Below are positions 9,192 to 21,876 of a stretch of DNA of 26,841 bases, piece after piece. The notes under the pieces were generated by a model. The model saw only the letters and a program-made list of their open reading frames with translations, made no database searches and was not told the DNA's origin. The first letter of the stretch is position 1. The number at the start of each line of letters is the position of its first letter. The DNA comes from a virus: the IMG/VR virus record IMGVR_UViG_3300034198_013126, positions 1 through 26,841 of that record; one strand, 5' to 3'. Position numbers and translations under genes: made by a program.

Positions 9192-9737
9192 TTAGATAGT
9201 CTTCCAAATTTCAATAACTTCATCTAAGTCAGTACATTGATCTACTCTAATATTTAAGCAATCAGTCCAAAATGTTGTGCCGTTGGATGGGTCTGTTTGA
9301 CCGGCTTCCCACTTTACAGACTTCTTCTCTATATCGATAAATCGAGCTGCTCCGACTATAAAGGCATTTGTAAATCTCTCAAGCCCTCTTTTATTTTTAT
9401 CACGAAGTAAAGACACAAATATATAAAAATTTGGACGCTGATGACTGTGATTGTAGAGTGGGACTGAACATTCGTAATAATCTTTCGGTACTACTGTTCT
9501 ATCTTTTGTCTTTATATCTATTGTTTTATTATTTTTTAATCTATAATCATGAGTAGTCAAATCATCGTGGATTAAATAGATATTATTTGATTTAAGATAA
9601 TTTTCTACAACTATTTCTCCTACAACTCCAACTTCATTTGCCATCTCTTTTCTATGACTATTATTATAAACAGGCATATGCTTTAGTCTTGATATTGACT
9701 GATCGATGTGATCACTTGTTATTTTTATGTCTATCAT
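9192..9737 (-). CDS. PD-(D/E)XK nuclease-like protein (181 aa)
   Basis: The 181-aa protein has the core of the PD-(D/E)XK fold: VVGEIVVENYL (E41 on the first helix), HDYRLKNN (D64) and KTIDIKTKD (D74-x-K76), followed by FYIFVSLLRD, a typical core strand. This points to a DNA endonuclease or a related DNA-processing enzyme; it has no obvious specificity domain. The ATG follows the 3' end of the tRNA-Arg-like gene by three bases (CTT) and has no ribosome-binding site, so the mature mRNA may be created by tRNA 3' processing. Role could be host DNA breakdown, recombination or mobile-gene activity; uncertain. Confidence 0.8.
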   Translation of the reverse strand: MIDIKITSDHIDQSISRLKHMPVYNNSHRKEMANEVGVVGEIVVENYLKSNNIYLIHDDLTTHDYRLKNNKTIDIKTKDRTVVPKDYYECSVPLYNHSHQRPNFYIFVSLLRDKNKRGLERFTNAFIVGAARFIDIEKKSVKWEAGQTDPSNGTTFWTDCLNIRVDQCTDLDEVIEIWKTI

Positions 9738-9740
9738 AAG

Positions 9741-9810
9741 CGCCCAATCTAGGAGTCGAACCTAGCACGATAAGGGTAGAAACCTAGTCTGTGCATCCGG
9801 CACATTGGGC
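9741..9810 (-). tRNA. tRNA-Arg(UCU)-like gene, atypical
   Basis: The 7-bp acceptor stem (GCCCAAT/ATTGGGC) and the 5-bp T-stem with loop TTCGACT are perfect, and G73 follows. The anticodon loop reads TTTCTAC, giving UCU (Arg, codon AGA). The anticodon stem has two mismatches, and the D-arm (GTGC-CGGAT-GCAC) abuts the acceptor stem with no bases 8-9 and a 5-nt loop. So the RNase P/Z-recognised half is intact while the other half is degenerate. It has no encoded CCA. Confidence 0.5.
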
Positions 9811-9811
9811 T

Positions 9812-9898
9812 TGGTGCGGGTAGTGGGACTTGAACCCACAAGAGGTTTCCCTCGGAAGATTTTAAGTCTCCTGCGTATGCCTATTCCGCCATACCCGC
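9812..9898 (-). tRNA. tRNA-Leu(UAA)
   Basis: Class II tRNA with acceptor GCGGGTA/TACCCGC, anticodon loop CTTAAAA (anticodon UAA, codon UUA), a long variable arm (GAGGGAAACCTC) and a GTGGG/CCCAC T-stem with loop TTCAAGT. A73 and CCA are encoded in the DNA. It directly precedes the tRNA-Arg-like gene by one base. Confidence 0.95.
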
Positions 9899-9902
9899 AA
9901 GA

Positions 9903-10070
9903 TTACTTTCTTTTTTTACGTTTATTCTCGTAAAAACGAATCCAGTCTTCTTCAGTCATCTGTCTAGTAGTGGCTTTAGATGGAGCAACCCGAAGACGAG
10001 GTTTGTGAATAACCTTACCTCCACTAGTCCAATATGTCTTTTTGCCTGTACTACCTTTGATATGTCTCAC
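9903..10070 (-). CDS. Small basic protein (55 aa)
   Basis: I translated this by hand: GTG start at 10070, TAA at 9905-9903, 55 residues beginning MRHIKGSTGKKTYWTSGGKV and ending in a Lys/Arg-rich tail (ENKRKKRK). It fits exactly between the glycosyltransferase stop (4-bp gap) and the 5' end of tRNA-Leu. Its high positive charge suggests nucleic-acid binding. No known family is recognised and the ribosome-binding site is weak. Confidence 0.7.
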   Translation of the reverse strand: MRHIKGSTGKKTYWTSGGKVIHKPRLRVAPSKATTRQMTEEDWIRFYENKRKKRK

Positions 10071-10074
10071 AATA

Positions 10075-11247
10075 TTATCTCATCAAATAGTTTGCAATCG
10101 GAGTTTCCTCCGGGTTTTCAATATTCCAATCAAGCATACCATCTCTCCACATGAAGTCATCGACTTCAAGATCCAAGAATCTTTGATGAATGTCACCTTC
10201 GTACACCTGATGAATCAGGGCAACAAGATTCTGAATTTCAGCGTTCCGCTTCTTCTGAGTATTATTTTTATGATGATACTGAATATATCCAAACTTCTGG
10301 ATATGAACTATCTTTGTGTGAAGAAAAGTTCTTACAAGAAGCTCATAATCATCAGCTACAAACAAATTCTTATTATGTCCACCAATACTATGATAAAAGT
10401 CACGTCTCCAAGCCCTAAAGTGATTTGGAACTCCAACAATATGACGTATAGTTTTGGAATTAATATCTGGATAGTTCGTAACTAGATAGTCACGTCCACG
10501 CCAAACTTCTGTCCTATAGCTTCCATATCCAAACCCCCATCCATCAGGATAAGAGGCGCTATCGTGCTGATCCCCAACTACTTCAGCACAGTCTGAGTAA
10601 CAAAATCCTGAATCTGGATAAGTTTGAAATGCCCTATAGACATCACCAAGCGCCCACGGAGTAAGTTCATCATCATGATCAAGTTCAACTAAATACTCTC
10701 CGCTAGCAAGACTAAAGGCATTCTTCTTTACCTCTCCGATAGAGCCTGAGTGGCTAGCAAAGAATACTTTGACTCTAGGATCTATTGAAGATAGTTGACT
10801 AATAGAGTGAAGCGTATTTTCATCGGAAGAGCCATCATCATATACAATCCATTCCCAGTTTTTATATTCCTGACCCACTAGAGATCTATACGGCCACCAA
10901 ATATCTTCGGTATTATATGTTGCAGTTATTACAGATATAACTGGCTCATTTATATTTGCATTATTTTTGATCAAACCTGAATAGCAACCAATAATAGCGT
11001 TGAATAAATTATCGTTACTAATAGGCTCTTCGATATGAAGCCATCTCTGTCTAATATACAATGGCTGACTGAGGAGTAATTTGTAAGAATTTAAGCTTCC
11101 GAATGAGATAATAACATGAGGATCTATCTCAGAAATTACTTTATTAGCAAATAGTCCATTTTTTTCATATGTAATATCAAATCTATCAAACTCTGGATCT
11201 TTAATTTCATCTGAATTAAAAATAACAACTTTAATTTTATCAGTCAT
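10075..11247 (-). CDS. Family 2 glycosyltransferase with N-terminal extension (390 aa)
   Basis: Residues ~103-330 form a GT-A family 2 domain: VISVITATYNTEDIWWPYRS, WIVYDDGSSDEN (D137, D138), then YLVELDHDDELTPWAL (DHDD around 190-193, the metal/nucleotide-sugar site) and FVADDYELLVR in the acceptor region. The first ~95 residues (EIDPHVIISFGSLNSYKLLL) form an extra domain without motifs I know. A GGAG box sits six bases before the ATG. It stands apart from the main glycosyltransferase operon, between small genes and tRNAs. It transfers a sugar from a nucleotide-sugar; the acceptor is unknown. Confidence 0.9.
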   Translation of the reverse strand: MTDKIKVVIFNSDEIKDPEFDRFDITYEKNGLFANKVISEIDPHVIISFGSLNSYKLLLSQPLYIRQRWLHIEEPISNDNLFNAIIGCYSGLIKNNANINEPVISVITATYNTEDIWWPYRSLVGQEYKNWEWIVYDDGSSDENTLHSISQLSSIDPRVKVFFASHSGSIGEVKKNAFSLASGEYLVELDHDDELTPWALGDVYRAFQTYPDSGFCYSDCAEVVGDQHDSASYPDGWGFGYGSYRTEVWRGRDYLVTNYPDINSKTIRHIVGVPNHFRAWRRDFYHSIGGHNKNLFVADDYELLVRTFLHTKIVHIQKFGYIQYHHKNNTQKKRNAEIQNLVALIHQVYEGDIHQRFLDLEVDDFMWRDGMLDWNIENPEETPIANYLMR

Positions 11248-11263
11248 ATTTCTCCAAATAGGA

Positions 11264-11287
11264 GACTGGGGGATTTCTCCCCCAGTC
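11264..11287 (-). terminator. Strong hairpin between 107-aa gene and glycosyltransferase
   Basis: A perfect 10-bp stem (GACTGGGGGA/TCCCCCAGTC) with a 4-nt loop. On the minus strand no T-run follows, and the GGAG ribosome-binding site of the next gene comes 9 nt later. It could act as a weak terminator, an RNA stabiliser or a processing site rather than a classic terminator. Confidence 0.5.
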
Positions 11288-11326
11288 TTTGCACTGCCTT
11301 CACACGGACTTCGCGCTTCGTTCGGA

Positions 11327-11650
11327 CTAAGACATCATATCATTAAGACGGACAATTCCATCGGGAATTGCAGCAAGTCTGCAAAGACCTTCCGGCTCAA
11401 CAGTCTGCAATACAATGTGACAGACACCATCGCCCTCGTAATGAGCACAATTTAAGCACTTAATGCCTCTAGAGGCAACATCATTCTCAGATGCCTCAGT
11501 ATATCCAACCCATATTCCCTTGCCATCGTTATTAGCAAGCTTTCCATGACGTTCTACAATATCCATCATAGCTTGAACAAACTCTTTTTCTGGCTGAGCC
11601 ATAGAGTTCATCATTTCTGCTGCAATCTTATCGATCCAGTCATTTTCCAT
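11327..11650 (-). CDS. Four-cysteine small protein (107 aa)
   Basis: The N-terminal half is helical (MENDWIDKIAAEMMNSMAQP) and the C-terminal half has CLNCAHYEGDGVCHIVLQTV followed by EPEGLCRLA: C-x2-C-x8-C-x11-C. This resembles short Cys4 modules (CgnC...C..V.G.i.p.g.C pattern) seen in phage head-associated and other phage proteins, which probably bind zinc or an iron-sulphur centre. A GGGG box is close before the ATG. No other function can be read. The gene is separated from the glycosyltransferase downstream by the strong hairpin. Confidence 0.8.
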   Translation of the reverse strand: MENDWIDKIAAEMMNSMAQPEKEFVQAMMDIVERHGKLANNDGKGIWVGYTEASENDVASRGIKCLNCAHYEGDGVCHIVLQTVEPEGLCRLAAIPDGIVRLNDMMS

Positions 11651-11702
11651 AATTACCCCATTCTTTGCGCTACGTTCGCAACTTTTAGATTATACCAGAT
11701 TT

Positions 11703-11873
11703 TCAAAAATTTTGATACGGAAGAATTCCCGGATCAAGTGTCATCCTTGACATTCCTTTTTCAATCTTCAAAACTCCAATACGAGGACGAGATTCATCTC
11801 CATCTGGATAGATATTGATCTCTGTTTCGATAGGATCTGGAGTCTTATCTCTCGAAATCTTTACATTAGCCAT
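11703..11873 (-). CDS. Hypothetical protein (56 aa)
   Basis: Translated by hand: ATG 11873, TGA 11705-11703, 56 residues, MANVKISRDKTPDPIETEIN to MSRMTLDPGILPYQNF. A good GGAG box lies seven bases before the ATG. It follows tRNA-Lys by 21 bp. It has no cysteine cluster or membrane segment and I do not recognise it. Confidence 0.75.
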   Translation of the reverse strand: MANVKISRDKTPDPIETEINIYPDGDESRPRIGVLKIEKGMSRMTLDPGILPYQNF

Positions 11874-11894
11874 TTTATTCTCCTTTATTGAGGG

Positions 11895-11967
11895 TGCCTC
11901 CGGTGGGTTTCGATCCCACGACTATCGGCTTAAAAGGCCGCTACTCTTCCAACTGAGTTACAGAGGC
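11895..11967 (-). tRNA. tRNA-Lys(UUU)
   Basis: Acceptor GCCTCTG/CGGAGGC (one G-U pair), D-arm ACTCAGTTGGAAGAGT, anticodon loop CTTTTAA (anticodon UUU, codon AAA), T-arm GTGGG-ATCGAAA-CCCAC, A73. CCA is not encoded. Its 5' end is five bases from the stop of the coiled-coil gene. Confidence 0.93.
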
Positions 11968-11972
11968 TTATG

Positions 11973-12248
11973 CTACTTCGCTACTATCTCGCAAGCAGTT
12001 CTGTTTTCGGCAATATTTTTGAGTCTAGTAATTAAAGATTTAACTATAGATCTGCTTGCATTAATTTCATCTTTAAGAAGACTAATTTCCAAGTTTTTCC
12101 CCTTAATCTCCATGCGAAGATTGTCATTTTCTTTTCTCAAATCGTCTATAGCATCGGCGCCAACAAGGAGTAATCTTTGATACCGATCTTCCGGCTGACG
12201 CTCATAGACACCATTAGCTTCATTACGAAGCTCAAGAGATACGTTCAT
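11973..12248 (-). CDS. Coiled-coil protein (91 aa)
   Basis: Start set at ATG 12248, which overlaps the stop of the preceding gene (ATGA); the frame extends further upstream only through the other gene. The 91-aa product begins MNVSLELRNEANGVYERQPE and contains a heptad-rich helix from about residue 40 (IDDLRKENDNLRMEIKGKNL) to the end, a clear coiled coil. Probably a small dimeric or adaptor protein; function unknown. Confidence 0.8.
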   Translation of the reverse strand: MNVSLELRNEANGVYERQPEDRYQRLLLVGADAIDDLRKENDNLRMEIKGKNLEISLLKDEINASRSIVKSLITRLKNIAENRTACEIVAK

Positions 12249-12487
12249 CTCCCCACCGCCTTGCGAAGAGCTTCGTATGCGGTGTACAGGTCTATTCCGC
12301 GGATCATGTCCGCTTCGTCTTCGGCGTCGGCCCATGCAGCGATGAGCTTTGTCAATCGTTCAATCTCATCTGCGGCCTTATTGAGAAGGAAACAATCAGT
12401 ATGACCGTGATCACTTTTAGGATCATCATCAGTCCAAGGTTTTCCAGCGGGACAAACTCTTTCTCGCAATTGATCAACTAATTGCAT
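12245..12487 (-). CDS. Hypothetical protein (80 aa)
   Basis: An 80-aa protein, MQLVDQLRERVCPAGKPWTD, with HTDCFLLNKAADEIERLTKL, a helix pattern common in small phage proteins of unknown role. I chose ATG 12487, four bases after the previous stop and preceded by AAGTGAG; ATG 12505 in the same frame is an alternative with a short overlap. Its last codons overlap the coiled-coil gene. Confidence 0.75.
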   Translation of the reverse strand: MQLVDQLRERVCPAGKPWTDDDPKSDHGHTDCFLLNKAADEIERLTKLIAAWADAEDEADMIRGIDLYTAYEALRKAVGR

Positions 12488-12491
12488 TGAC

Positions 12492-12650
12492 TCACTTTTT
12501 TGCATCATCAACAACAATCTTGTTATCATACAGAGCATCGAAGCACGCTTTTGCTACAGATCTTACAAGAGGAGCATAAGTATCAGTAAACTTAGATAAT
12601 TCTTTTGCAGTGCTCAATGGTATTTCAATTTTAATACTATCTTCATTCAT
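12492..12650 (-). CDS. Hypothetical protein (52 aa)
   Basis: Hand-translated from ATG 12650 to TGA 12494-12492: MNEDSIKIEIPLSTAKELSK through FDALYDNKIVVDDAKK. Its start overlaps the stop of the previous small gene (ATGA). No known family; short, mostly helical. The tight overlap chain with both neighbours supports it as a real gene. Confidence 0.72.
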   Translation of the reverse strand: MNEDSIKIEIPLSTAKELSKFTDTYAPLVRSVAKACFDALYDNKIVVDDAKK

Positions 12651-12805
12651 CCTTCATACCTCAATGCTTTCTCTCTTGCCATATCTACAATATCTCCATT
12701 GTAGAATTCTCCATCTGGGTTGCACATAGCTTCAACTATAACCCTTGGAAGAACTAATATTACCAAATCTTGCATTTCTTCTTTTGTTGGATCTGATGCC
12801 GACAT
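12647..12805 (-). CDS. Hypothetical protein (52 aa)
   Basis: Hand-translated from ATG 12805 to TGA 12649-12647: MSASDPTKEEMQDLVILVLP through GDIVDMAREKALRYEG. AAGGA lies about seven bases before the ATG, and the start shares one base with the previous stop (TAATG). Unknown function. Confidence 0.72.
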   Translation of the reverse strand: MSASDPTKEEMQDLVILVLPRVIVEAMCNPDGEFYNGDIVDMAREKALRYEG

Positions 12806-12972
12806 TATCTATCCTTAGAAAGTAATTCTTCTATATCTTGATTTTGTTTTAAAATAAAATTAGCTATTTTAATAAGAGAAGATCGTTCTACGCTGTCATC
12901 AAAAAGTGATGATATCCTCATAAGTTCTGATGCAAACGTCTGGGCTTTTTGTCTATCTGATTTATATATCAT
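12805..12972 (-). CDS. Hypothetical protein directly after tRNA-Ile (55 aa)
   Basis: Hand-translated from ATG 12972 to TAA 12807-12805: MIYKSDRQKAQTFASELMRI to IEELLSKDR. The ATG comes three bases (CTT) after the discriminator base of tRNA-Ile and there is no ribosome-binding site, the same arrangement as the nuclease gene after tRNA-Arg. Helical, no known family. Confidence 0.72.
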   Translation of the reverse strand: MIYKSDRQKAQTFASELMRISSLFDDSVERSSLIKIANFILKQNQDIEELLSKDR

Positions 12973-12975
12973 AAG

Positions 12976-13049
12976 TCCGGTAGGAAGGAATTGAACCTTC
13001 GACTACGACTGTATAAGAATCGCGCTCTAACCAACTGAGCTACTACCGG
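12976..13049 (-). tRNA. tRNA-Ile(UAU)
   Basis: Acceptor CCGGTAG/CTACCGG, D-arm TAGCTCAGTTGGTTAGAGC, anticodon loop CTTATAC (anticodon UAU, codon AUA), T-loop TTCAATT, A73, no encoded CCA. A UAU anticodon reads AUA directly without lysidine. Confidence 0.92.
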
Positions 13050-13050
13050 C

Positions 13051-13125
13051 TGGAGCCTAAGAAGGGACTTGAACCCTTGACCGCTCGCTTACAAGGCGAG
13101 TGCTCTACCACTGAGCTACTCAGGC
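13051..13125 (-). tRNA. tRNA-Thr(UGU)
   Basis: Acceptor GCCTGAG/CTTAGGC with one G-U pair, D-arm TAGCTCAGTGGTAGAGC, anticodon stem CTCGC/GCGAG with loop CTTGTAA (anticodon UGU, codon ACA), T-loop TTCAAGT, U73 and an encoded CCA. One base separates it from tRNA-Ile, so they are processed from one precursor. Confidence 0.94.
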
Positions 13126-13155: not shown

Positions 13156-13854
13156 TCACGTCAGGAAATTGTCTTTCCAAGTAAAATCTTGACGATTCCA
13201 CGGTTTATCGTGAACTTCTTCTCCGGGAAGCCCGCCCCACTTATCTCTAAAATAGTCTCGGTTCTTTTCAAACAACTGAGAAGGAACTACAGGCTCTCCG
13301 CTATTCTGCGTTCTTGAGCCGTAGTGGTAAAATACTGCATTCTGCGATCTAGCACATCTAAGACCCGCCAAAATGGTTCTATAACAATAGTCATTGTCTT
13401 CGAAGTATGCAGGGTATATATTGTTGTCAAATTCGCCAATATAATCATAGGTTTCTGGTGTAATCATAAAGCAGGCAAAGTCGGGAGCAGGCATTATATC
13501 TACAGAATGAGCAGGCTTCTCGCAGATCTTTACCTGCTCTGGTGTCATCGAATCTCTGTAGTCTGTTGCTGTTATTACACCAATATAATCTAAATCAATA
13601 AGGCTACACATATGTTCAATAGTTGTTGGAGATAAAACAATATCATCATTTATTATAAGAATATAATCACAGTTTTTTTCTATAGCTTTTCTTGCACCCA
13701 TATTCCAAGCACCAGAAACTCCATTATTAGTAGACCAGTTATCTATAATAAAAAGTTCCCAATCCATTCCCTCTGGAATTTGAATTGACTCAATAGCTTT
13801 AATTGCTAGTTCAAATTGATTTAAAATAGGTATAACTACGCCAACTTTTTTCAT
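13156..13854 (-). CDS. Family 2 glycosyltransferase (232 aa)
   Basis: GT-A family 2: KKVGVVIPILNQFELAIKAI, LFIIDNWSTNNG, YILIINDDIVLSPTTIEHM (NDD metal site) and YPAYFEDNDYCYRTILAGL (acceptor/base region). This resembles rhamnosyl- or other hexosyl-transferases of the WbbL-like group, but specificity cannot be read. Start is ATG 13854, which shares a base with the preceding stop and has a GGGAAG box; a longer TTG start is possible but less likely. It is the last gene of the glycan operon before the tRNA-Thr/Ile pair. Confidence 0.9.
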   Translation of the reverse strand: MKKVGVVIPILNQFELAIKAIESIQIPEGMDWELFIIDNWSTNNGVSGAWNMGARKAIEKNCDYILIINDDIVLSPTTIEHMCSLIDLDYIGVITATDYRDSMTPEQVKICEKPAHSVDIMPAPDFACFMITPETYDYIGEFDNNIYPAYFEDNDYCYRTILAGLRCARSQNAVFYHYGSRTQNSGEPVVPSQLFEKNRDYFRDKWGGLPGEEVHDKPWNRQDFTWKDNFLT

Positions 13855-14414
13855 CAAACTTCCCAAGGATTATAAATACCATCACTAATGTTTCTACCAT
13901 GAAATCTATACTGCCAAAGAATTTGAGGAAGGCATTTAATTTTAAAACCATTTGTTACAAGCTGAACCCACATAGCATGATCTTCGCACACAACTGCCGG
14001 ATACCCGCCTACAGCTTCCCAAGCAGACTTTCTAAGCAGCACAGTCGCTGGTATGAAATTGGAAGTAAGGATTCTTTCTTCATCATAATAAGCGTTAGGA
14101 TTCCATCCATTTCTTGTCCCGGTTACTTCACACCAAGGGTAAATCATGTCTGCATCACCAGCATTATCAACAAGCTGCTGAATATAATCGGGGTATAAAA
14201 TATCGTCATCACAAAGAGGAGCTACCCACTCGGTAGTTGCTGCATCAATCAGTTTATTGAACATAGCACTGGCTCCGACGCGCTCGTAGTCAGTTCCGAT
14301 AATATGAGCCTTGGGCTGAACTGTCTGATTCCTCACAGACTCCATACAGTCAGCGAGCATCTCATGTCTATGAGCTAAAGTTGGGGTAATAACTGTTACA
14401 TCTGCAAATTCCAT
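13854..14414 (-). CDS. Family 2 glycosyltransferase (186 aa)
   Basis: A short GT-A protein: MEFADVTVITPTLAHRHEML, YERVGASAMFNKLIDAATTE, WVAPLCDDDILYPDYIQQL (DDD site) and LRKSAWEAVGGYPAVVCEDH. I chose ATG 14414, which has GGAG five bases before it; the longer frame to 14495 would run through the end of the previous gene. At 186 aa it holds only the catalytic domain. Cytoplasmic; sugar and acceptor unknown. Confidence 0.88.
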   Translation of the reverse strand: MEFADVTVITPTLAHRHEMLADCMESVRNQTVQPKAHIIGTDYERVGASAMFNKLIDAATTEWVAPLCDDDILYPDYIQQLVDNAGDADMIYPWCEVTGTRNGWNPNAYYDEERILTSNFIPATVLLRKSAWEAVGGYPAVVCEDHAMWVQLVTNGFKIKCLPQILWQYRFHGRNISDGIYNPWEV

Positions 14415-14424
14415 AAGATCTCCA

Positions 14425-15120
14425 TTAGTGATATGTAGAGTACCAGTACTCTGCATCTTTTCTCTTGGCCTCTTCGACCCAAGTGTTTTCGCCATTTGCG
14501 GCAGTTGCTTCTTCTATATGAGTTATATGAAGACCATTAATGCGACATACATAATAATTAGCTTTTCGGACATTCATCTCAACGTGATCATCACCAAACC
14601 ACCAAATAAGATTTTCATCTACATATGGCATCTCATCTGGAGCGAGTTCTCCCCTCAACATAAAGCAGAATCCGCACATCCCGCCATCTTTTTTAGTTCC
14701 GGTAGTGGGAGTTAAGACAAATTTTGCATCAGTGTTGAAGTATCCGTGATCTGGATAGACGCAGCCGACTTGATCCTGAGATCTCAAGAGTTCCGACATC
14801 TTTTCTACAAGTGGTTCAGACCATTCAATATCATTATTAAAGAAAGCAATATTAAATATATCAAATTTAGATACAGCCTCTGACCATGCATGATTCCACA
14901 TTTGATGGAGCTTCCATCCTGATGCGTCTACAATGGTAAATCTAGGATCATCAGAAATAAAGTTTCTGATATCTCTGATAACTTCTTCCCTAGACCCATT
15001 ATCGTACATAATAGCTTGATCAAATTTTTCATTCTTCAAAAGATTAATATACTTGATAGTCATCTCTACTTCATTTTTAAAAGGAGTTACAACTATAGTA
15101 TGGATTTTATTTTCACTCAT
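14425..15120 (-). CDS. GT-A glycosyltransferase-like protein (231 aa)
   Basis: GT-A fold features: MSENKIHTIVVTPFKNEVEM, AIMYDNGSREEVIRDIRNFI, FNIAFFNNDIEWSEPLVEKM (NND in place of DxD), GGMCGFCFMLRGELAPDEMP and LIWWFGDDHVEMNVRKANYY. The overall pattern is that of family 2 enzymes. The ATG is preceded by ATTGGACGCTT, nearly the same sequence as at the tRNA-Arg/nuclease junction. There is a 36-bp gap to the gene upstream with a possible promoter. Substrate unknown. Confidence 0.86.
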   Translation of the reverse strand: MSENKIHTIVVTPFKNEVEMTIKYINLLKNEKFDQAIMYDNGSREEVIRDIRNFISDDPRFTIVDASGWKLHQMWNHAWSEAVSKFDIFNIAFFNNDIEWSEPLVEKMSELLRSQDQVGCVYPDHGYFNTDAKFVLTPTTGTKKDGGMCGFCFMLRGELAPDEMPYVDENLIWWFGDDHVEMNVRKANYYVCRINGLHITHIEEATAANGENTWVEEAKRKDAEYWYSTYH

Positions 15121-15141
15121 AAGCGTCCAATGTTCAAAATC

Positions 15142-15147
15142 ATTATA
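15142..15147 (-). promoter_or_regulatory. Possible -10 box inside glycan operon
   Basis: TATAAT on the minus strand in the only sizeable gap of the glycan operon, 21 bp before the 231-aa glycosyltransferase start. No convincing -35 hexamer lies at 16-18 bp, so this is tentative. Confidence 0.3.
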
Positions 15148-15156
15148 CTATATTTT

Positions 15157-15909
15157 TCAAGATCTTGTTGGTGCTGGATCTAAAATCATATCTGTTGACA
15201 AAAAATCTTGCCATAGTTGGAATAGCGAATCATCATCTAGAGCACCCATTTGTCTCCAATGAGCACCCTCTCCCTCGGGGAGATTAGTGGCGTCGTATGC
15301 AATTTTACCGTTTCGGAGCTTCCTTTTAAACTGCTCAAAAGATCGATATTGGAAGTGTCTTATTTCTACAGCACTATAGTTTCGTTCTCCAGATCTTATA
15401 ACATTGTGATTTCCCTGAAGGATTTCAAAATCATCTTCGGCCCTAAATGCTACGCATGGCCAAAGCTCTGGTAGCGGCTCTTTATGTAGAATAGTTTTGA
15501 TTGGATTATCTCCAACTGGATCATCAGAGGTTGGAAAGTGATCAAATACCTTAGCCACAGCTATAGGCTCCGATAGAGATCTAAGCTCAGATCCAAGAGT
15601 TTCCCCGGAAGTCGCGTACCAGACTTCATCTGCATCGAATGGGATAATCCAGTCAGCACCATTTGACACTGCTTTATTTGCCAGATTTGTCATTTTCAGT
15701 GATTGATAGTATGCCACTTCAAAATCATCTTCTATCAATATATTCTTATACTCTCTAGCAAGGTCTTCCAGAATATCTCTAGTTCCATCAGAAGACATAT
15801 TGTCTAATACAATAAAATTATCAATATCTTCACAAAGAAGATGTTTGATTGTATATTCAATAATATCTGCTTCATCTTTTACCATAGCTATAGCGAATAC
15901 TTTATTCAT
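15157..15909 (-). CDS. Glycosyltransferase, Glyco_tranf_2_4-like (250 aa)
   Basis: The N-terminus VFAIAMVKDEADIIEYTIKH, FIVLDNMSSDGTRDIL and NGADWIIPFDADEVWY are the signatures of the Glyco_tranf_2_4 group (GT-A fold, often annotated as family 2). The metal site is FDADE. Later segments (EIRHFQYRSFEQFKRKLRNG) match the C-terminal helix typical of that group. Start ATG 15909 overlaps the acyltransferase gene by eight bases. It is part of the overlapping glycan operon; the sugar acceptor is unknown. Confidence 0.9.
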   Translation of the reverse strand: MNKVFAIAMVKDEADIIEYTIKHLLCEDIDNFIVLDNMSSDGTRDILEDLAREYKNILIEDDFEVAYYQSLKMTNLANKAVSNGADWIIPFDADEVWYATSGETLGSELRSLSEPIAVAKVFDHFPTSDDPVGDNPIKTILHKEPLPELWPCVAFRAEDDFEILQGNHNVIRSGERNYSAVEIRHFQYRSFEQFKRKLRNGKIAYDATNLPEGEGAHWRQMGALDDDSLFQLWQDFLSTDMILDPAPTRS

Positions 15910-16516
15910 TTAAATCTTTAATCCTTCTGGCTGGAACTCCCGCCACAGTAGTACCGGGATTATCTATATTTTTCACAACAACACTTCCGGCACCTATAGT
16001 TGTATTTTCAGCAATATTGATTAAATTAATAATAGAAGCTCCAGTTCCAATGAAAGCATTATCACCTATATTTACTTCTCCAGCAATATTAACTCCGGGA
16101 CCAATGCTGCAAAACTTTCCAATTTCTGTTCCTTGGCTTACTGTTGAGCCAACATTCACATGAGAGTCTGAATTTATCCATACATTTCCAGTAATAATAA
16201 CTCCCGGGAAAATGACTACACCATCACCTAAAAAAACTTTCTTGCCAATGATTGCTGATGGATGAACTAATGTCGCTGGAATAGTTAATCTTTTTTTAAG
16301 AAACATTTTACGTTTTAAGTATGGTTCGTTAACTCCGATAACATAATAAACATTATCGATGCTTTTATCAACACCACCGATAACTCCGGCCTTATTTTTA
16401 TCATCATCAAGATATCCAAGCAAATTCCAAGTCGGAACTTGATCGTTTATAGCACTGACTATTGTCTCTATACCAGAACCGTGAGAACCTGCTCCGATAA
16501 TAACTAGATTTTTCAC
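15902..16516 (-). CDS. NeuD/PglD-like sugar O- or N-acyltransferase (204 aa)
   Basis: N-terminal Rossmann-like domain (MKNLVIIGAGSHGSGIETIV) followed by a left-handed beta-helix of hexapeptide repeats (VHPSAIIGKKVFLGDGVVIF, VNVGSTVSQGTEIGKFCSIG, TTIGAGSVVVKNIDNPGTTV) and the closing VAGVPARRIK. This is the architecture of NeuD/PglD acetyltransferases, which acylate amino- or hydroxy-sugars with acetyl-CoA. A trimer is expected. Start is GTG in a TAGTG overlap with the methyltransferase stop. In this operon it probably acylates a sugar intermediate or the finished glycan. Confidence 0.93.
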   Translation of the reverse strand: MKNLVIIGAGSHGSGIETIVSAINDQVPTWNLLGYLDDDKNKAGVIGGVDKSIDNVYYVIGVNEPYLKRKMFLKKRLTIPATLVHPSAIIGKKVFLGDGVVIFPGVIITGNVWINSDSHVNVGSTVSQGTEIGKFCSIGPGVNIAGEVNIGDNAFIGTGASIINLINIAENTTIGAGSVVVKNIDNPGTTVAGVPARRIKDLNE

Positions 16517-17142
16517 TAGACACTCCAGTTATTATAATGTATAACATCTAAGATTTGATGATCAACTTTAATATTTTTGAATAGAACTGGATTCTTTGTA
16601 AAGATCAATATATTTTGTCTATACCAGTTTTCAATATTTTCATTATTCCAAAAATTAAATCTAAAAATAGGCGAACATACATAGCCTTTTTGATGAAACT
16701 TCGGTACCCAATAACTTGGCCACTGTTCATTTATATGTCCAACGCCTTTTTGGCCCGGAACGGCTGCTGACCACAGTATATTGTCTGAGCTATTGCAAAT
16801 ATTAGTCACAAATTGATCAGCAAATTCATGAGGAATATGCTCAGCAACTTCAAGTGATATAGCTAAATCATACTTTTTGTTTAAAAAAAACTCTGAAGAA
16901 AGATCTCTTAGTGTAAAACTTTCTTCGGGTATAAGAGAATGTCCCTCTGGAGATCCATCGACTCCGGCTATTTCATCTATGCCATTCTCTTTAAATACTG
17001 ATAGCCAAGCCCCCGTTCCACAGCCAAAGTCAACTACAGACTTTGGTTTAAATATGCTTATTACTTCGGGTACGATAGCTCTTGCAGATGACAAGGCTCC
17101 ATCATGTATTTGATTATAAAAATCTTCATTGTATGCGTTCAT
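16516..17142 (-). CDS. SAM-dependent methyltransferase (208 aa)
   Basis: Class I methyltransferase: motif I SVVDFGCGTGAWLSVF (residues ~35-50), acidic motif II IAGVDGSPEGHSL, YDLAISLEVAEHIPHEFADQ as motif IV region, and LWSAAVPGQKGVGHINEQWP. I start it at ATG 17142, which overlaps the previous stop (ATGA); the longer frame to 17283 is just read-through of the neighbour. Members beside glycosyltransferases often methylate a sugar or cap a glycan chain, which fits here, but the substrate is not shown by the sequence. Confidence 0.92.
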   Translation of the reverse strand: MNAYNEDFYNQIHDGALSSARAIVPEVISIFKPKSVVDFGCGTGAWLSVFKENGIDEIAGVDGSPEGHSLIPEESFTLRDLSSEFFLNKKYDLAISLEVAEHIPHEFADQFVTNICNSSDNILWSAAVPGQKGVGHINEQWPSYWVPKFHQKGYVCSPIFRFNFWNNENIENWYRQNILIFTKNPVLFKNIKVDHQILDVIHYNNWSV

Positions 17143-17813
17143 ACACGCCAGCCATCCCCTCTGTAGTGTCCTATATGATCTACCAAAGGAGGATCTTCGA
17201 TATGTCCTAAATATGCACACTTGACATATGGATCTGAAAACAGAAGTTCTGAAAACTCTTTCTCTCCCCAACCGACTTGCCATCCCAAATTAAATACCCA
17301 TTTTGGATATAGACATGGATTTAAAGTAAAGAAGTTTCTATGCTCTAACCACTTAACATTATCATGTATATATGGCTCATATGAAGTTGGATCTTGATAC
17401 ATAAATCCACCAACAGAAATTTCTTGATCATTAATTGCCTGTCTTTTCAAGGCAACTTGAGCAAGAGTTTTTTTATTATTCAGCTTATATTTTAATATAT
17501 TAACATCAATTTTTTTATTAAAAATAAAATCGCCTTCTTGATGCCAAACATAATCTATATCGTAAACATTTGCTATATTCCATAAGGTTCTTATTGAACC
17601 AGAAAGTCCCATATTTACAGAATGAGAATAAATTTCATATCTATCTGAGTATTTTTCTTCAAGATATTTTGAATACTCACTATCTCCAGAATCATCAATA
17701 ATTACTTTTTTAAAAAAATCACAAAATAAATTATCTTCTAAAGATTGAATTGTGGCATCTAAACAATCTGGTCTTTTATTGTCAATAATACCCAATAACA
17801 CTTTGTCATTCAT
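17139..17813 (-). CDS. Family 2-like glycosyltransferase (224 aa)
   Basis: GT-A-like: MNDKVLLGIIDNKRPDCLDA, FFKKVIIDDSGDSEYSKYLE, SHSVNMGLSGSIRTLWNIAN and VWHQEGDFIFNKKIDVNILK (EGD at the usual DxD place). Start at ATG 17813, with GGGAGG about ten bases before, overlapping the previous gene by eight bases; an earlier in-frame ATG at 17831 includes that box inside the coding region. The C-terminal half (WVFNLGWQVGWGEKEFSELL) is unlike standard family 2 enzymes. Function inferred from fold and operon. Confidence 0.84.
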   Translation of the reverse strand: MNDKVLLGIIDNKRPDCLDATIQSLEDNLFCDFFKKVIIDDSGDSEYSKYLEEKYSDRYEIYSHSVNMGLSGSIRTLWNIANVYDIDYVWHQEGDFIFNKKIDVNILKYKLNNKKTLAQVALKRQAINDQEISVGGFMYQDPTSYEPYIHDNVKWLEHRNFFTLNPCLYPKWVFNLGWQVGWGEKEFSELLFSDPYVKCAYLGHIEDPPLVDHIGHYRGDGWRV

Positions 17814-18486
17814 TTGGAAAGAACCTCCCATTATGAACTAGATACTGAACACTGTCGCCATGATATCTCTTAGCTTCATAAGGACCACCTTCTACTGGAT
17901 AGAACTTGTGTCCAGCGTCAGTTATTCTATTCCAGAAATACGCATCGGCTCCCGCCCAATATTCTGGGTTATCCGGCCATCCACCAACATCGTAGAACAA
18001 CTGAGTTCTATGCATTACCGAATTATGATCAACTATGTTATATGCAATATCTAATATCCCCTGAGTTTCTCTTATTTCAATAGTAGTTCCATCAGGTTGA
18101 ATTGATCTTTGACTTCCATAAACTATATTGATGTTCTCATTTTCAAAACTTTTGAGCATAGATTCAAGTCGATCTGGATAATAAAAGTCATCATCAGTAA
18201 GATATGTTATATAGTCGCCAGTTGCTATCTCATAGACGCCCAGATTTATTAAGGTAGCGTATCTAGCTGTTTTATATCTATCCTGCTCAGAAACATTAGA
18301 TGTATATATCTTAATTCTTTCATCTTTGTAAGAAGACAAAATCTCCTGAACCATTGGATCAGGAGAATTGTCATCAAGAATTATAAGTTCCCAATTATCA
18401 TATGTCTGGTCAATTACAGAGTCAATGCACTGTTTTAACCATTGAGGCTTATTATAGACAGTGAGAAGAACGCTAACTCTAGCCAT
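17806..18486 (-). CDS. Family 2 glycosyltransferase (226 aa)
   Basis: A classic GT-A family 2 enzyme: RVSVLLTVYNKPQWLKQCID, NWELIILDDNSPDPMVQEIL (DDN), GDYITYLTDDDFYYPDRLES (TDDD metal site) and HRTQLFYDVGGWPDNPEYWA with GADAYFWNRI as acceptor/catalytic base area. It is the first gene of the glycan operon, six bases after the endolysin stop, with only a weak ribosome-binding site, so it may be coupled to endolysin translation or read from the same transcript. Sugar and acceptor unknown. Confidence 0.92.
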   Translation of the reverse strand: MARVSVLLTVYNKPQWLKQCIDSVIDQTYDNWELIILDDNSPDPMVQEILSSYKDERIKIYTSNVSEQDRYKTARYATLINLGVYEIATGDYITYLTDDDFYYPDRLESMLKSFENENINIVYGSQRSIQPDGTTIEIRETQGILDIAYNIVDHNSVMHRTQLFYDVGGWPDNPEYWAGADAYFWNRITDAGHKFYPVEGGPYEAKRYHGDSVQYLVHNGRFFPNE

Positions 18487-19582: not shown

Positions 19583-19601
19583 CAAAATTATATTAAAAGC
19601 G

Positions 19602-19686
19602 TGGAAGGAGTGGGATTCGAACCCACGGTGAGTTTCCCCACAACGGTTTTCAAGACCGACGCATTCGTCCGCTCTGCCACCCTTCC
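19602..19686 (-). tRNA. tRNA-Ser(UGA)
   Basis: Class II tRNA: acceptor GGAAGGG/TCCTTCC, anticodon loop CTTGAAA (anticodon UGA, codon UCA), long variable arm (TGTGGGGAAACTCACC), T-arm GTGGG-TTCGAAT-CCCAC. A73, no encoded CCA. Its first base is also the last base of the stop codon of the upstream Cys-rich gene. Confidence 0.94.
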
Positions 19687-19877
19687 TAGAAGTCTTCAAG
19701 CTTATTTGAAGTTGAAGGATTACTAGACTTATACCCACCCGGAACATCACCAAAAGATATAGTTCTTATTCTGCAAGCAAAACAATTACAATCAGAAGTG
19801 TGGTGGCATGAACATTCACAATGTTTTTCTTCACATTTTTTATGATCTTTACTAGCACATAAAGTTGATTTAACCAT
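19686..19877 (-). CDS. Cys/His-rich small protein (63 aa)
   Basis: A 63-aa protein with a dense cysteine/histidine block, LCASKDHKKCEEKHCECSCH followed by HTSDCNCFACR: nine Cys and four His within about 30 residues. It probably binds one or two zinc ions or another metal. The start shares a base with the thyX stop (TAATG). The last base of its TAG is the first base of tRNA-Ser, so tRNA processing would cut the mRNA at its stop codon. Family unknown. Confidence 0.8.
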   Translation of the reverse strand: MVKSTLCASKDHKKCEEKHCECSCHHTSDCNCFACRIRTISFGDVPGGYKSSNPSTSNKLEDF

Positions 19878-21081: not shown

Positions 21082-21279
21082 CTATATAATTGGGATTTCT
21101 TTCTCAATCTTGTTCCAAAGACTTTTTGCAACAAGATATCTATCATCTGTAAAGAGAACTACAGACTTTTCTTCCGCTGCTGTCTTCATCTTGTGGAAGA
21201 AGTCTACAACGGCAGCGTTTAGAAAAGCTGCTTCCATCTCCGTGAGTTTAAAATTGTAATCTTTTTCTATATTGTCCAT
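21082..21279 (-). CDS. Hypothetical protein directly after tRNA-Val (65 aa)
   Basis: A 65-aa protein, MDNIEKDYNFKLTEMEAAFL, AAVVDFFHKMKTAAEEKSVV to SLWNKIEKEIPII. No known family. The ATG lies two bases (CT) after the discriminator base of tRNA-Val and there is no ribosome-binding site, the third case in this window of a gene starting at a tRNA 3' end. Confidence 0.78.
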   Translation of the reverse strand: MDNIEKDYNFKLTEMEAAFLNAAVVDFFHKMKTAAEEKSVVLFTDDRYLVAKSLWNKIEKEIPII

Positions 21280-21281
21280 AG

Positions 21282-21355
21282 TGGATGTTGAGGGATTCGA
21301 ACCCCCGACTTTCTCGGTGTAAGCGAGACACTCTGACCAACTGAGTTAAACATCC
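21282..21355 (-). tRNA. tRNA-Val(UAC)
   Basis: Acceptor GGATGTT/AACATCC, D-arm ACTCAGTTGGTCAGAGT, anticodon stem TCTCG/CGAGA with loop CTTACAC (anticodon UAC, codon GUA), T-loop TTCGAAT, A73, no encoded CCA. Its first ten bases overlap the end of the deformylase gene, including its stop codon. Confidence 0.94.
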
Positions 21356-21876
21356 CAAGGCATATCTATTTCCGGAGCATTATACTCTGAAATTTTTGAC
21401 TTTGCCTTAAAATGTCGAAGGAACTCTTCTCTCTGCTCTTCTGTCAGAAAATCCGGGATGAGAATACCATCTAAATGATCCAGTTCATGTTGGACTATCC
21501 TAGCGTAAAGTCCCTTGAAGGTCTTGCAGTGTTTATTCCCATAAATATCATAATATGATATACAAATAGATTTCGGCCTTTTAATAGGCCAAAAATAATC
21601 TGGAATAGATAGACATCCTTCATTGAAAATTTCAAAGCCTGAATAAGATTCAATATGTGGATCACATATCCACATTAGATCTTTTTTATTTGGATTAATT
21701 ATACCAAACATCTGGAAGGGCTTATTAATTTGAATTGCGGAAATACCTAATCCATTTACATTCCAGCATTCTTTTCTCATATCAAGAGCAAGCTCTTCTC
21801 TTTCTGGAAGAGAAAGATGTTCTAATACTGGAATAGATACTTGATCTAAATTCTTAGATGGATACTTAACTATCAC
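21346..21876 (-). CDS. def: Polypeptide deformylase
   Basis: 176-aa PDF that removes the formyl group from nascent protein N-termini. All three motifs are present: GLGISAIQ (42-49, normally GxGLAAxQ), NEGCLSIP (metal ligand C88) and VQHELDHLDG (H130, E131, H134; metal ligands and base). Deformylases are known as auxiliary genes of marine and freshwater phages. The start is GTG 21876, with a GGGAG 11 bases before and an 11-bp overlap with the preceding gene. Its stop codon lies inside tRNA-Val, so tRNA maturation and full-length translation compete for the same RNA. Confidence 0.95.
   Translation of the reverse strand: MIVKYPSKNLDQVSIPVLEHLSLPEREELALDMRKECWNVNGLGISAIQINKPFQMFGIINPNKKDLMWICDPHIESYSGFEIFNEGCLSIPDYFWPIKRPKSICISYYDIYGNKHCKTFKGLYARIVQHELDHLDGILIPDFLTEEQREEFLRHFKAKSKISEYNAPEIDMPWDV

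Follow-up and report, generated by a model that had tools for sequence, protein, structure and literature searches.

The best reading of three tRNA-gene junctions in a virus is that tRNA punctuation probably gives rise to mRNAs that are leaderless, or nearly so. The junctions lie on the minus strand of a stretch of 26,841 nucleotides (the window, meaning the whole stretch analysed), and we infer cleavage at the junctions and translation of the freed mRNAs from sequence. The three spacings between tRNA and ATG (CTT, CTT and CT) and the ORFs of 181, 55 and 65 aa are as the initial annotation gave them, and the tRNAs were called with ARAGORN. tRNA-Arg(TCT) (9740..9810; discriminator G at 9741, C74 at 9740, no encoded CCA) has a paired acceptor stem and the 3' sequence ATTGGGC-G-CTT-ATG, in which the spacer occupies 9738..9740 and the ATG at 9737 opens the gene of a 181-aa protein (9192..9737). 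No family match was found for this protein and a pattern scan returned no viral relatives; one distant locus was found later, and the alignment with a distant homologue starts at the first residues of that homologue (MNPIEVEIT / MIDIKIT). tRNA-Ile(TAT) (12975..13049; discriminator A at 12976, C74 at 12975, no encoded CCA), likewise with a paired stem, reads CTACCGG-A-CTT-ATG, with the spacer at 12973..12975 and the ATG at 12972 opening a 55-aa ORF (12805..12972) for which a homologue was sought and none found. tRNA-Val(TAC) (21281..21355; discriminator A at 21282, C74 at 21281) also has a paired stem and reads AACATCC-A-CT-ATG; its CT spacer (21280..21281) is followed by the gene of a 65-aa conserved protein (21082..21279) that has no in-frame start further upstream of the ATG at 21279.

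In these pairs tRNA and gene share a strand, and the upstream ORF ends 4 nt before the tRNA or inside it. A peptide deformylase gene (21346..21876, minus strand) has its last 10 bases, including the stop, within tRNA-Val, and because of this overlap the two are most simply co-transcribed. One base upstream of tRNA-Arg lies tRNA-Leu(TAA) (9812..9898), with a stop codon 4 nt upstream, and one base upstream of tRNA-Ile lies tRNA-Thr(TGT) (13051..13125), both on the minus strand with an encoded CCA; a rule tying encoded CCA to a tRNA coming next was rejected, as it fails in relatives. The contrast cases, also on the minus strand, are tRNA-Lys(TTT) (11893..11967), where the next gene begins 22 nt past the discriminator behind the Shine-Dalgarno (SD) AAAGGAG, and tRNA-Ser(TGA) (19601..19686), where it begins about 33 nt downstream. 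Anti-SD duplex energies are -0.9 at the Val junction, -2.6 at Ile and -5.0 at Arg, so that the lack of a ribosome-binding site proposed earlier is borne out only in part, an SD being absent at Val, weak at Ile and moderate at Arg. The other minus-strand genes of the window have a median of -4.7, and since 9 of these 32 are weaker than -2, weak SDs are nothing unusual in the window.

Among the relatives of the window, the junction A-C-T-ATG is fixed wherever tRNA-Val(TAC) is present (G007/G006, G010, G014, G015 and G053), while the acceptor stems of this tRNA covary. An SD is absent throughout these Val junctions (between -2.5 and +1.7). What follows the tRNA differs: the slot holds either a gene of a 65-71 aa family or that of a C5 methyltransferase, the Pfam domain of which begins at residue 1; in G007 the displaced gene of the 65-aa family carries an SD-like AATAAGG. 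In G010 and G014 ORFs can be read through tRNA-Val, but this reading was discarded, since both the window and G015 have the frame closed upstream. The Arg and Ile junctions occur only in the window and are not kept in relatives, and conservation of the spacing in related phages thus applies to Val and not to the other two.

We then counted unique tRNA junctions with no tRNA next that open an ATG or GTG frame, 45 codons or longer, 1-3 nt past the discriminator, with the permuted triplets AGT and GGT as control. Such frames are opened at 14/61 junctions of freshwater relatives (permuted, 0) and at 17/133 junctions of Streptomyces phages of the Stanwilliamsviridae (permuted, 2), while six phages of other bacteria (T4, T5, KVP40, S-CREM1, CcrSC and PAK_P2) have none among 75 (Fisher p 2.5e-5). 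Mycobacteriophage Myrna gave no ATG or GTG start of this type. A survey of ATG near tRNA 3' ends, suggested in the initial annotation as a comparison with chance, was therefore positive in actinophages and negative in the six other phages. Independently, the GenBank annotations of StarPlatinum, Yaboi, Gilson and Comrade begin 13 genes at the tRNA end + 1. The annotated abutting starts in the Streptomyces phages are 9 ATG, 5 GTG and 0 TTG, and downstream of tRNA-Phe homologous genes of Comrade and Gilson start at the same position, one with GTG and the other with ATG. Viral contigs were also scanned with the pattern T-arm...C-N(0-2)-ATG, and the matches listed served for ORF lengths and a distance profile. 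For viral tRNAs not selected for ATG, among the matches listed, ATG-opened frames peak at 2-3 nt, stay at control level from 6 to 15 nt and rise from 16 nt; the separation of the peak from the later rise indicates that abutting genes are a distinct class.

The pattern extends to the chromosomes of acI, a family of freshwater Actinobacteria. In acI the arrangement tRNA-Leu-C-RTG is found at 28/29 loci of an ANTAR regulator (25 ATG, 3 GTG) whose N-terminal tails are otherwise variable. C-RTG gave 212 matches in 95/101 genomes, against 39 for the permuted C-RGT and against 75 and 83 for the registers CN-RTG and CNN-RTG; the same enrichment was sought in 25 other genomes and not found. Genes that open at acI tRNA junctions include those of PPIase, LeuS, a PgsA-like protein, GDPD and an RNase_T-fold protein, with domains starting within about 20 residues, and for PPIase C-RTG is seen at only 8/19 tRNA-linked loci. 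Homologous domains pin start codons at these junctions. The arrangement, first noted in a phage and likened to mitochondrial punctuation, is not phage-specific and is also common in acI chromosomes.

Published maps suggest how such junctions could work. Cleavage of tRNA has been mapped between the two Cs of CCA, i.e. after C74, in S. coelicolor (PMC4681348) and P. acnes (PMC3848588). We hypothesize that each tRNA gene shares a transcript with its neighbours and that host maturation of the tRNA 3' end would free the downstream mRNA, with its 5' end at the start codon or 1-2 nt before it. The actinobacterial cut can fall after C74, one base past the discriminator; where the spacer is a single C, as in the Streptomyces phages and acI, the mRNA would therefore start exactly at AUG or GUG, while the window spacers would leave U-AUG (Val) and UU-AUG (Arg, Ile). 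Translation of the freed mRNAs could then follow the leaderless route, which is common in Actinobacteria and would make an SD unnecessary. Leaderless starts in C. glutamicum are AUG in 79% and GUG in 21% of cases (PMC3890552), and the abutting starts of the Streptomyces phages resemble them. Reporters in M. smegmatis required RTG at exactly +1 (PMC4633059), and the 1-2 nt leaders of the window may therefore initiate poorly. The host of the window is inferred to be an actinobacterium; a portal search of cellular genomes gave no match. Punctuation with leaderless initiation in an actinobacterial setting, as first suggested, is strongly favoured by the comparison, and what tells against it is the window register, which leaves 1-2 nt, the SD-like stems of some Streptomyces phages, the lack of conservation at Arg and Ile, the negative result in Myrna and the low share of C-RTG at the PPIase loci. 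We also counted against it that compact genomes favour abutting genes anyway.

These SD-like stems are the basis of another explanation, in which the acceptor stem has a dual use: an uncleaved transcript would be translated from an SD formed by the 3' strand of the stem, in competition with tRNA folding or processing. In Streptomyces phages, tRNAs with an abutting gene are more SD-like (-5.1, n=17, versus -3.0, n=134; p 0.015), although the sequences tested share kinship; one example reads AGAGGAATCAC-GTG, and in the window tRNA-Arg has TTGGGCG (-5.0). The element is, however, base-paired within the tRNA, and it is absent from every Val junction of the relatives and from G050/G051, and by eye from the tRNA-Ala junctions of acI. 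We think that this explanation is unlikely overall, but it competes seriously at some junctions of Streptomyces phages.

Ordinary crowding in compact genomes, with uncut polycistronic RNA translated by SD-independent internal initiation or reinitiation, would agree with upstream stops close to the tRNAs and with the very weak SDs of other window genes. It is nevertheless quite improbable, since the upstream stop is separated from the ATG by a folded tRNA, T4, T5 and KVP40 are compact yet have no abutting RTG genes, the acI register is sharp and the 2-3 nt peak among the matches listed marks a separate class. A promoter within the tRNA gene could instead give a leaderless primary transcript from the ATG. 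Leaderless promoters are in use in Actinobacteria (PMC4633059) and tRNA-Arg has TAGATT, a TANNNT-like -10, 8 nt before the ATG. A promoter inside tRNA-Val was rejected, the variants TCAACA, TCAGTG and TTAACG having no -10; the acI tRNA-Leu and tRNA-Ala have none at that position, and the window has no more promoter-like matches than shuffles do, with none at the junctions. An internal promoter is thus highly improbable.

tRNA-punctuated expression, the preferred reading, has several known counterparts, and the open-access literature searched contained no description of tRNA-punctuated mRNAs from phages or bacteria. As in mitochondrial punctuation, tRNAs and genes abut, no more than 3 nt separate the start codon from the tRNA 3' end and excision would set the mRNA 5' ends; the present case, predicted from sequence, differs in concerning bacteria and phages and a minority of genes. 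The leaderless mRNAs of M. smegmatis, S. coelicolor, C. glutamicum and P. acnes similarly have AUG or GUG at or near the 5' end without an SD, but they were mapped as transcription starts, whereas tRNA processing would generate the 5' end here; their +1 start would fit C-RTG cut after C74 and not the CT and CTT spacers of the window. MazF of E. coli also generates leaderless ends through cleavage, although there a stress toxin cuts mRNA and here housekeeping tRNA maturation is proposed. The Stanwilliamsviridae (Comrade, Gilson, StarPlatinum, Yaboi) have a portal about 42% identical to that of the window, share ThyX, RNR and glycosyltransferases with it and, like it, have many tRNAs and abutting genes, with a spacer mostly of 1 nt versus 2-3 nt in the relatives of the window.

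It is tempting to propose, with our confidence evenly balanced and on comparative grounds, that tRNA 3' maturation after C74 could be a general source of leaderless mRNAs in streamlined freshwater Actinobacteria, housekeeping genes (LeuS, PPIase, PgsA) included, and that phages of Actinobacteria exploit it, tRNA genes serving as signals for processing and thereby placing the start codons. If true, mitochondrial-style tRNA punctuation would operate in bacteria and phages, protein expression would be mechanically coupled to tRNA maturation, and leaderless mRNAs would have a concrete source other than promoters. It would also give a reason for the C kept after the discriminator and allow start annotation beside tRNAs to be fixed to the nucleotide; the idea is testable with cultured Streptomyces phages and their hosts.

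Of the seven tRNAs in this 26.8-kb IMG/VR record, all on the minus strand, three are followed almost directly by a start codon. The tRNA-to-start spacing claimed in the initial annotation was borne out, with CTT-ATG after tRNA-Arg (gene start at 9737) and tRNA-Ile (12972) and CT-ATG after tRNA-Val (21279). The claim that these genes lack a ribosome-binding site held in part: anti-Shine-Dalgarno (SD) energies are -5.0 (Arg), -2.6 (Ile) and -0.9 (Val), and 9 of the 32 other minus-strand genes are also weaker than -2. The junctions of tRNA-Lys, with the next gene 22 nt on and preceded by AAAGGAG, and of tRNA-Ser, about 33 nt from an amidase gene, are ordinary. At 19686, tRNA-Ser begins with the base that ends the stop codon of a 63-aa ORF (19686-19877). 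A glycosyltransferase-like gene (14425-15120) has a start region, TTGGACGCTTATG, similar to the tRNA-Arg end at 9737, TTGGGCGCTTATG; no tRNA was found at its start.

The discriminator A followed by C, T and ATG was found in every relative carrying tRNA-Val (G014, G015, G010, G006/G007 and G053) as in the window, while the acceptor stem varies by paired changes (GGATGTT, GGACACT, GGACGTT, GGGCGTT). The following gene encodes 65 aa in the window, G014 and G015, 71 aa in G010, 403 aa in G006/G007 and 400 aa in G053. The gene of 400-403 aa encodes a C5 DNA methyltransferase, and because the Pfam domain begins at residue 1 the start is well fixed. In G007 it occupies the tRNA-Val slot, and the displaced 65-aa-family gene lies behind, overlapping the methyltransferase stop and with AATAAGG upstream. 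These comparisons indicate that the Val junction is conserved independently of the downstream gene. In two relatives (L117:4272-5483; L386:1285-2487) the methyltransferase gene exactly fills the space from tRNA-Val to the 65-aa-family gene, which makes the tRNA end look like a slot for insertions. In another locus, L390, no tRNA was found, and the peptide deformylase gene and a 64-aa gene overlap through ATGA. The expected conservation of spacing thus holds for Val but not for Arg or Ile. In relatives, tRNA-Ile is followed by a gene with an SD (AAGGAG or AGGAGG) or by a longer gap, and the gap behind tRNA-Arg is mostly about 15-30 nt, so these two junctions are local.

The suggested survey of related phages showed an excess over chance. 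Unique junctions without a following tRNA were counted as abutting when an ATG or GTG frame of at least 45 codons opened 1-3 nt past the discriminator, with AGT/GGT as control. Freshwater relatives gave 14/61 (control 0) and Streptomyces phages 17/133 (control 2), against 0/75 (control 2) in T4, T5, KVP40, S-CREM1, CcrSC and PAK_P2 (Fisher p 2.5e-5, inflated by sequence kinship); Myrna gave 0/18 (control 3). Two unassigned viruses, G050 and G051, gave 9/20 (control 0), a rate biased upward because they came from a scan for the junction itself. Both are AT-rich (L429-L431), with abutting genes after 6/20 and 5/7 tRNAs, the top rates seen and subject to the same bias. Among 513 viral tRNAs, ATG-opened frames peak at 2-3 nt, are at control level at 6-15 nt and give way to an SD class from 16 nt; this profile is supportive but biased by contig choice, the tRNAs coming from two junction scans, not themselves ATG-matched, with some contigs picked for another ATG junction. 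GenBank annotation places 13 genes directly past an annotated tRNA end in StarPlatinum, Yaboi, Gilson and Comrade. Several small proteins past these tRNAs (L435-L438) look KOW/SH3-like by eye, one nearby being annotated KOW, and the region also encodes a Ro-like protein, RNA ligase, polynucleotide kinase and tmRNA. In G019 (L152:12764-12841), G027 and G029, a tRNA-Asn with encoded CCA shares its final A with the ATG that opens a 184-185-aa gene; a single transcript could not yield both a mature tRNA that keeps its encoded CCA and an mRNA with its start codon intact.

Cellular genomes were scanned for a T-arm followed by C-N(0,1)-ATG. In the freshwater acI actinobacterium Candidatus Planktophila versatilis, tRNA-Leu(CAA)-C-ATG precedes a response regulator with an ANTAR domain, and in a lake actinobacterium tRNA-CC-ATG precedes TadA. 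tRNA-Leu(CAA) lies upstream of the ANTAR regulator at 29/30 fetched acI-family loci (L555-L584), hinting that regulation may be coupled to that tRNA. A-C-RTG (R, A or G) occurs at 28 of these 29 (25 ATG, 3 GTG), one having a 50-nt leader, and the first residues of the regulator vary despite the fixed junction. The PPIase after tRNA-Ala shows C-RTG at 8/19 loci and longer leaders at the remainder, several with SD-like motifs; the abutting state has therefore been gained and lost. Other acI junctions precede LeuS, CDP-alcohol phosphatidyltransferase, GDPD, RNase_T-fold exonuclease, bicarbonate-transporter-like and DoxD-like genes. Across 101 acI genomes, which are related and whose matches are not independent events, C-RTG gave 212 matches (95 genomes), the permuted C-RGT 39, CN-RTG 75 and CNN-RTG 83; for 25 other bacteria the counts were 10 and 17, with no enrichment. 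The window's CTT-ATG spacing is seen in acI too.

The most serious alternative is an SD carried by the tRNA acceptor stem. Abutting tRNAs of Streptomyces phages are more SD-like than other tRNAs, and their genes as a group are only slightly weaker (-5.4 versus -6.7 for other genes, p 0.07); however, this leaves tRNA-Val, G050/G051 and the acI tRNA-Ala cases unexplained. Crowding of compact genomes alone does not explain the junctions either, as it accounts neither for their sharp register nor for their absence from compact T4-, T5- and KVP40-type genomes. An internal tRNA promoter is a plausible alternative for tRNA-Arg alone; promoter-like matches in the window were not above shuffles. Co-transcription is the simplest reading, since the 3' end of the peptide deformylase gene overlaps tRNA-Val, and a stop codon lies 4 nt before the start of tRNA-Leu. 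The deformylase stop codon lies inside tRNA-Val (21346-21355), so tRNA excision would leave that mRNA without a stop codon.

In dRNA-seq of P. acnes (PMC3848588) and S. coelicolor (PMC4681348), CCA-encoding tRNAs are cleaved at the 3' side between the two Cs of CCA; P. acnes is said to be without obvious tRNase Z. The same cut on discriminator-C-RTG would release a 5'-monophosphate mRNA opening with its start codon. Reporters in M. smegmatis needed an RTG placed exactly at +1 (PMC4633059). In the window and its relatives, one or two extra bases would make the mRNA start U-AUG or UU-AUG, unless the host cuts further on; these bases are the weakest link of the mechanism for the window itself.

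The host is likely a member of Actinobacteria, given its portal kin and the genes shared with Streptomyces phages. The portal returned many relatives among viral contigs (80 kept) and no carrier among the cellular contigs searched. By portal, the closest isolates (about 42% identical) are Stanwilliamsviridae phages of Streptomyces, which have ThyX, RNR and glycosyltransferases in common with the window. Genes for sugar modification, glycosyltransferase-like ones among them, form a run at 13156-18486, and a collagen-like repeat protein is encoded at 1021-2484.

A literature search, mostly outside subscription journals, found no earlier report of tRNA-punctuated mRNAs, whether from phages or from bacteria. 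Processing and translation at these junctions are inferred. The punctuation reading is supported in outline as an architecture of actinophages, but it is not confined to phages: the abutting arrangement is shared by an actinophage group and a free-living family of Actinobacteria, and it yields a precise prediction of the cut site.
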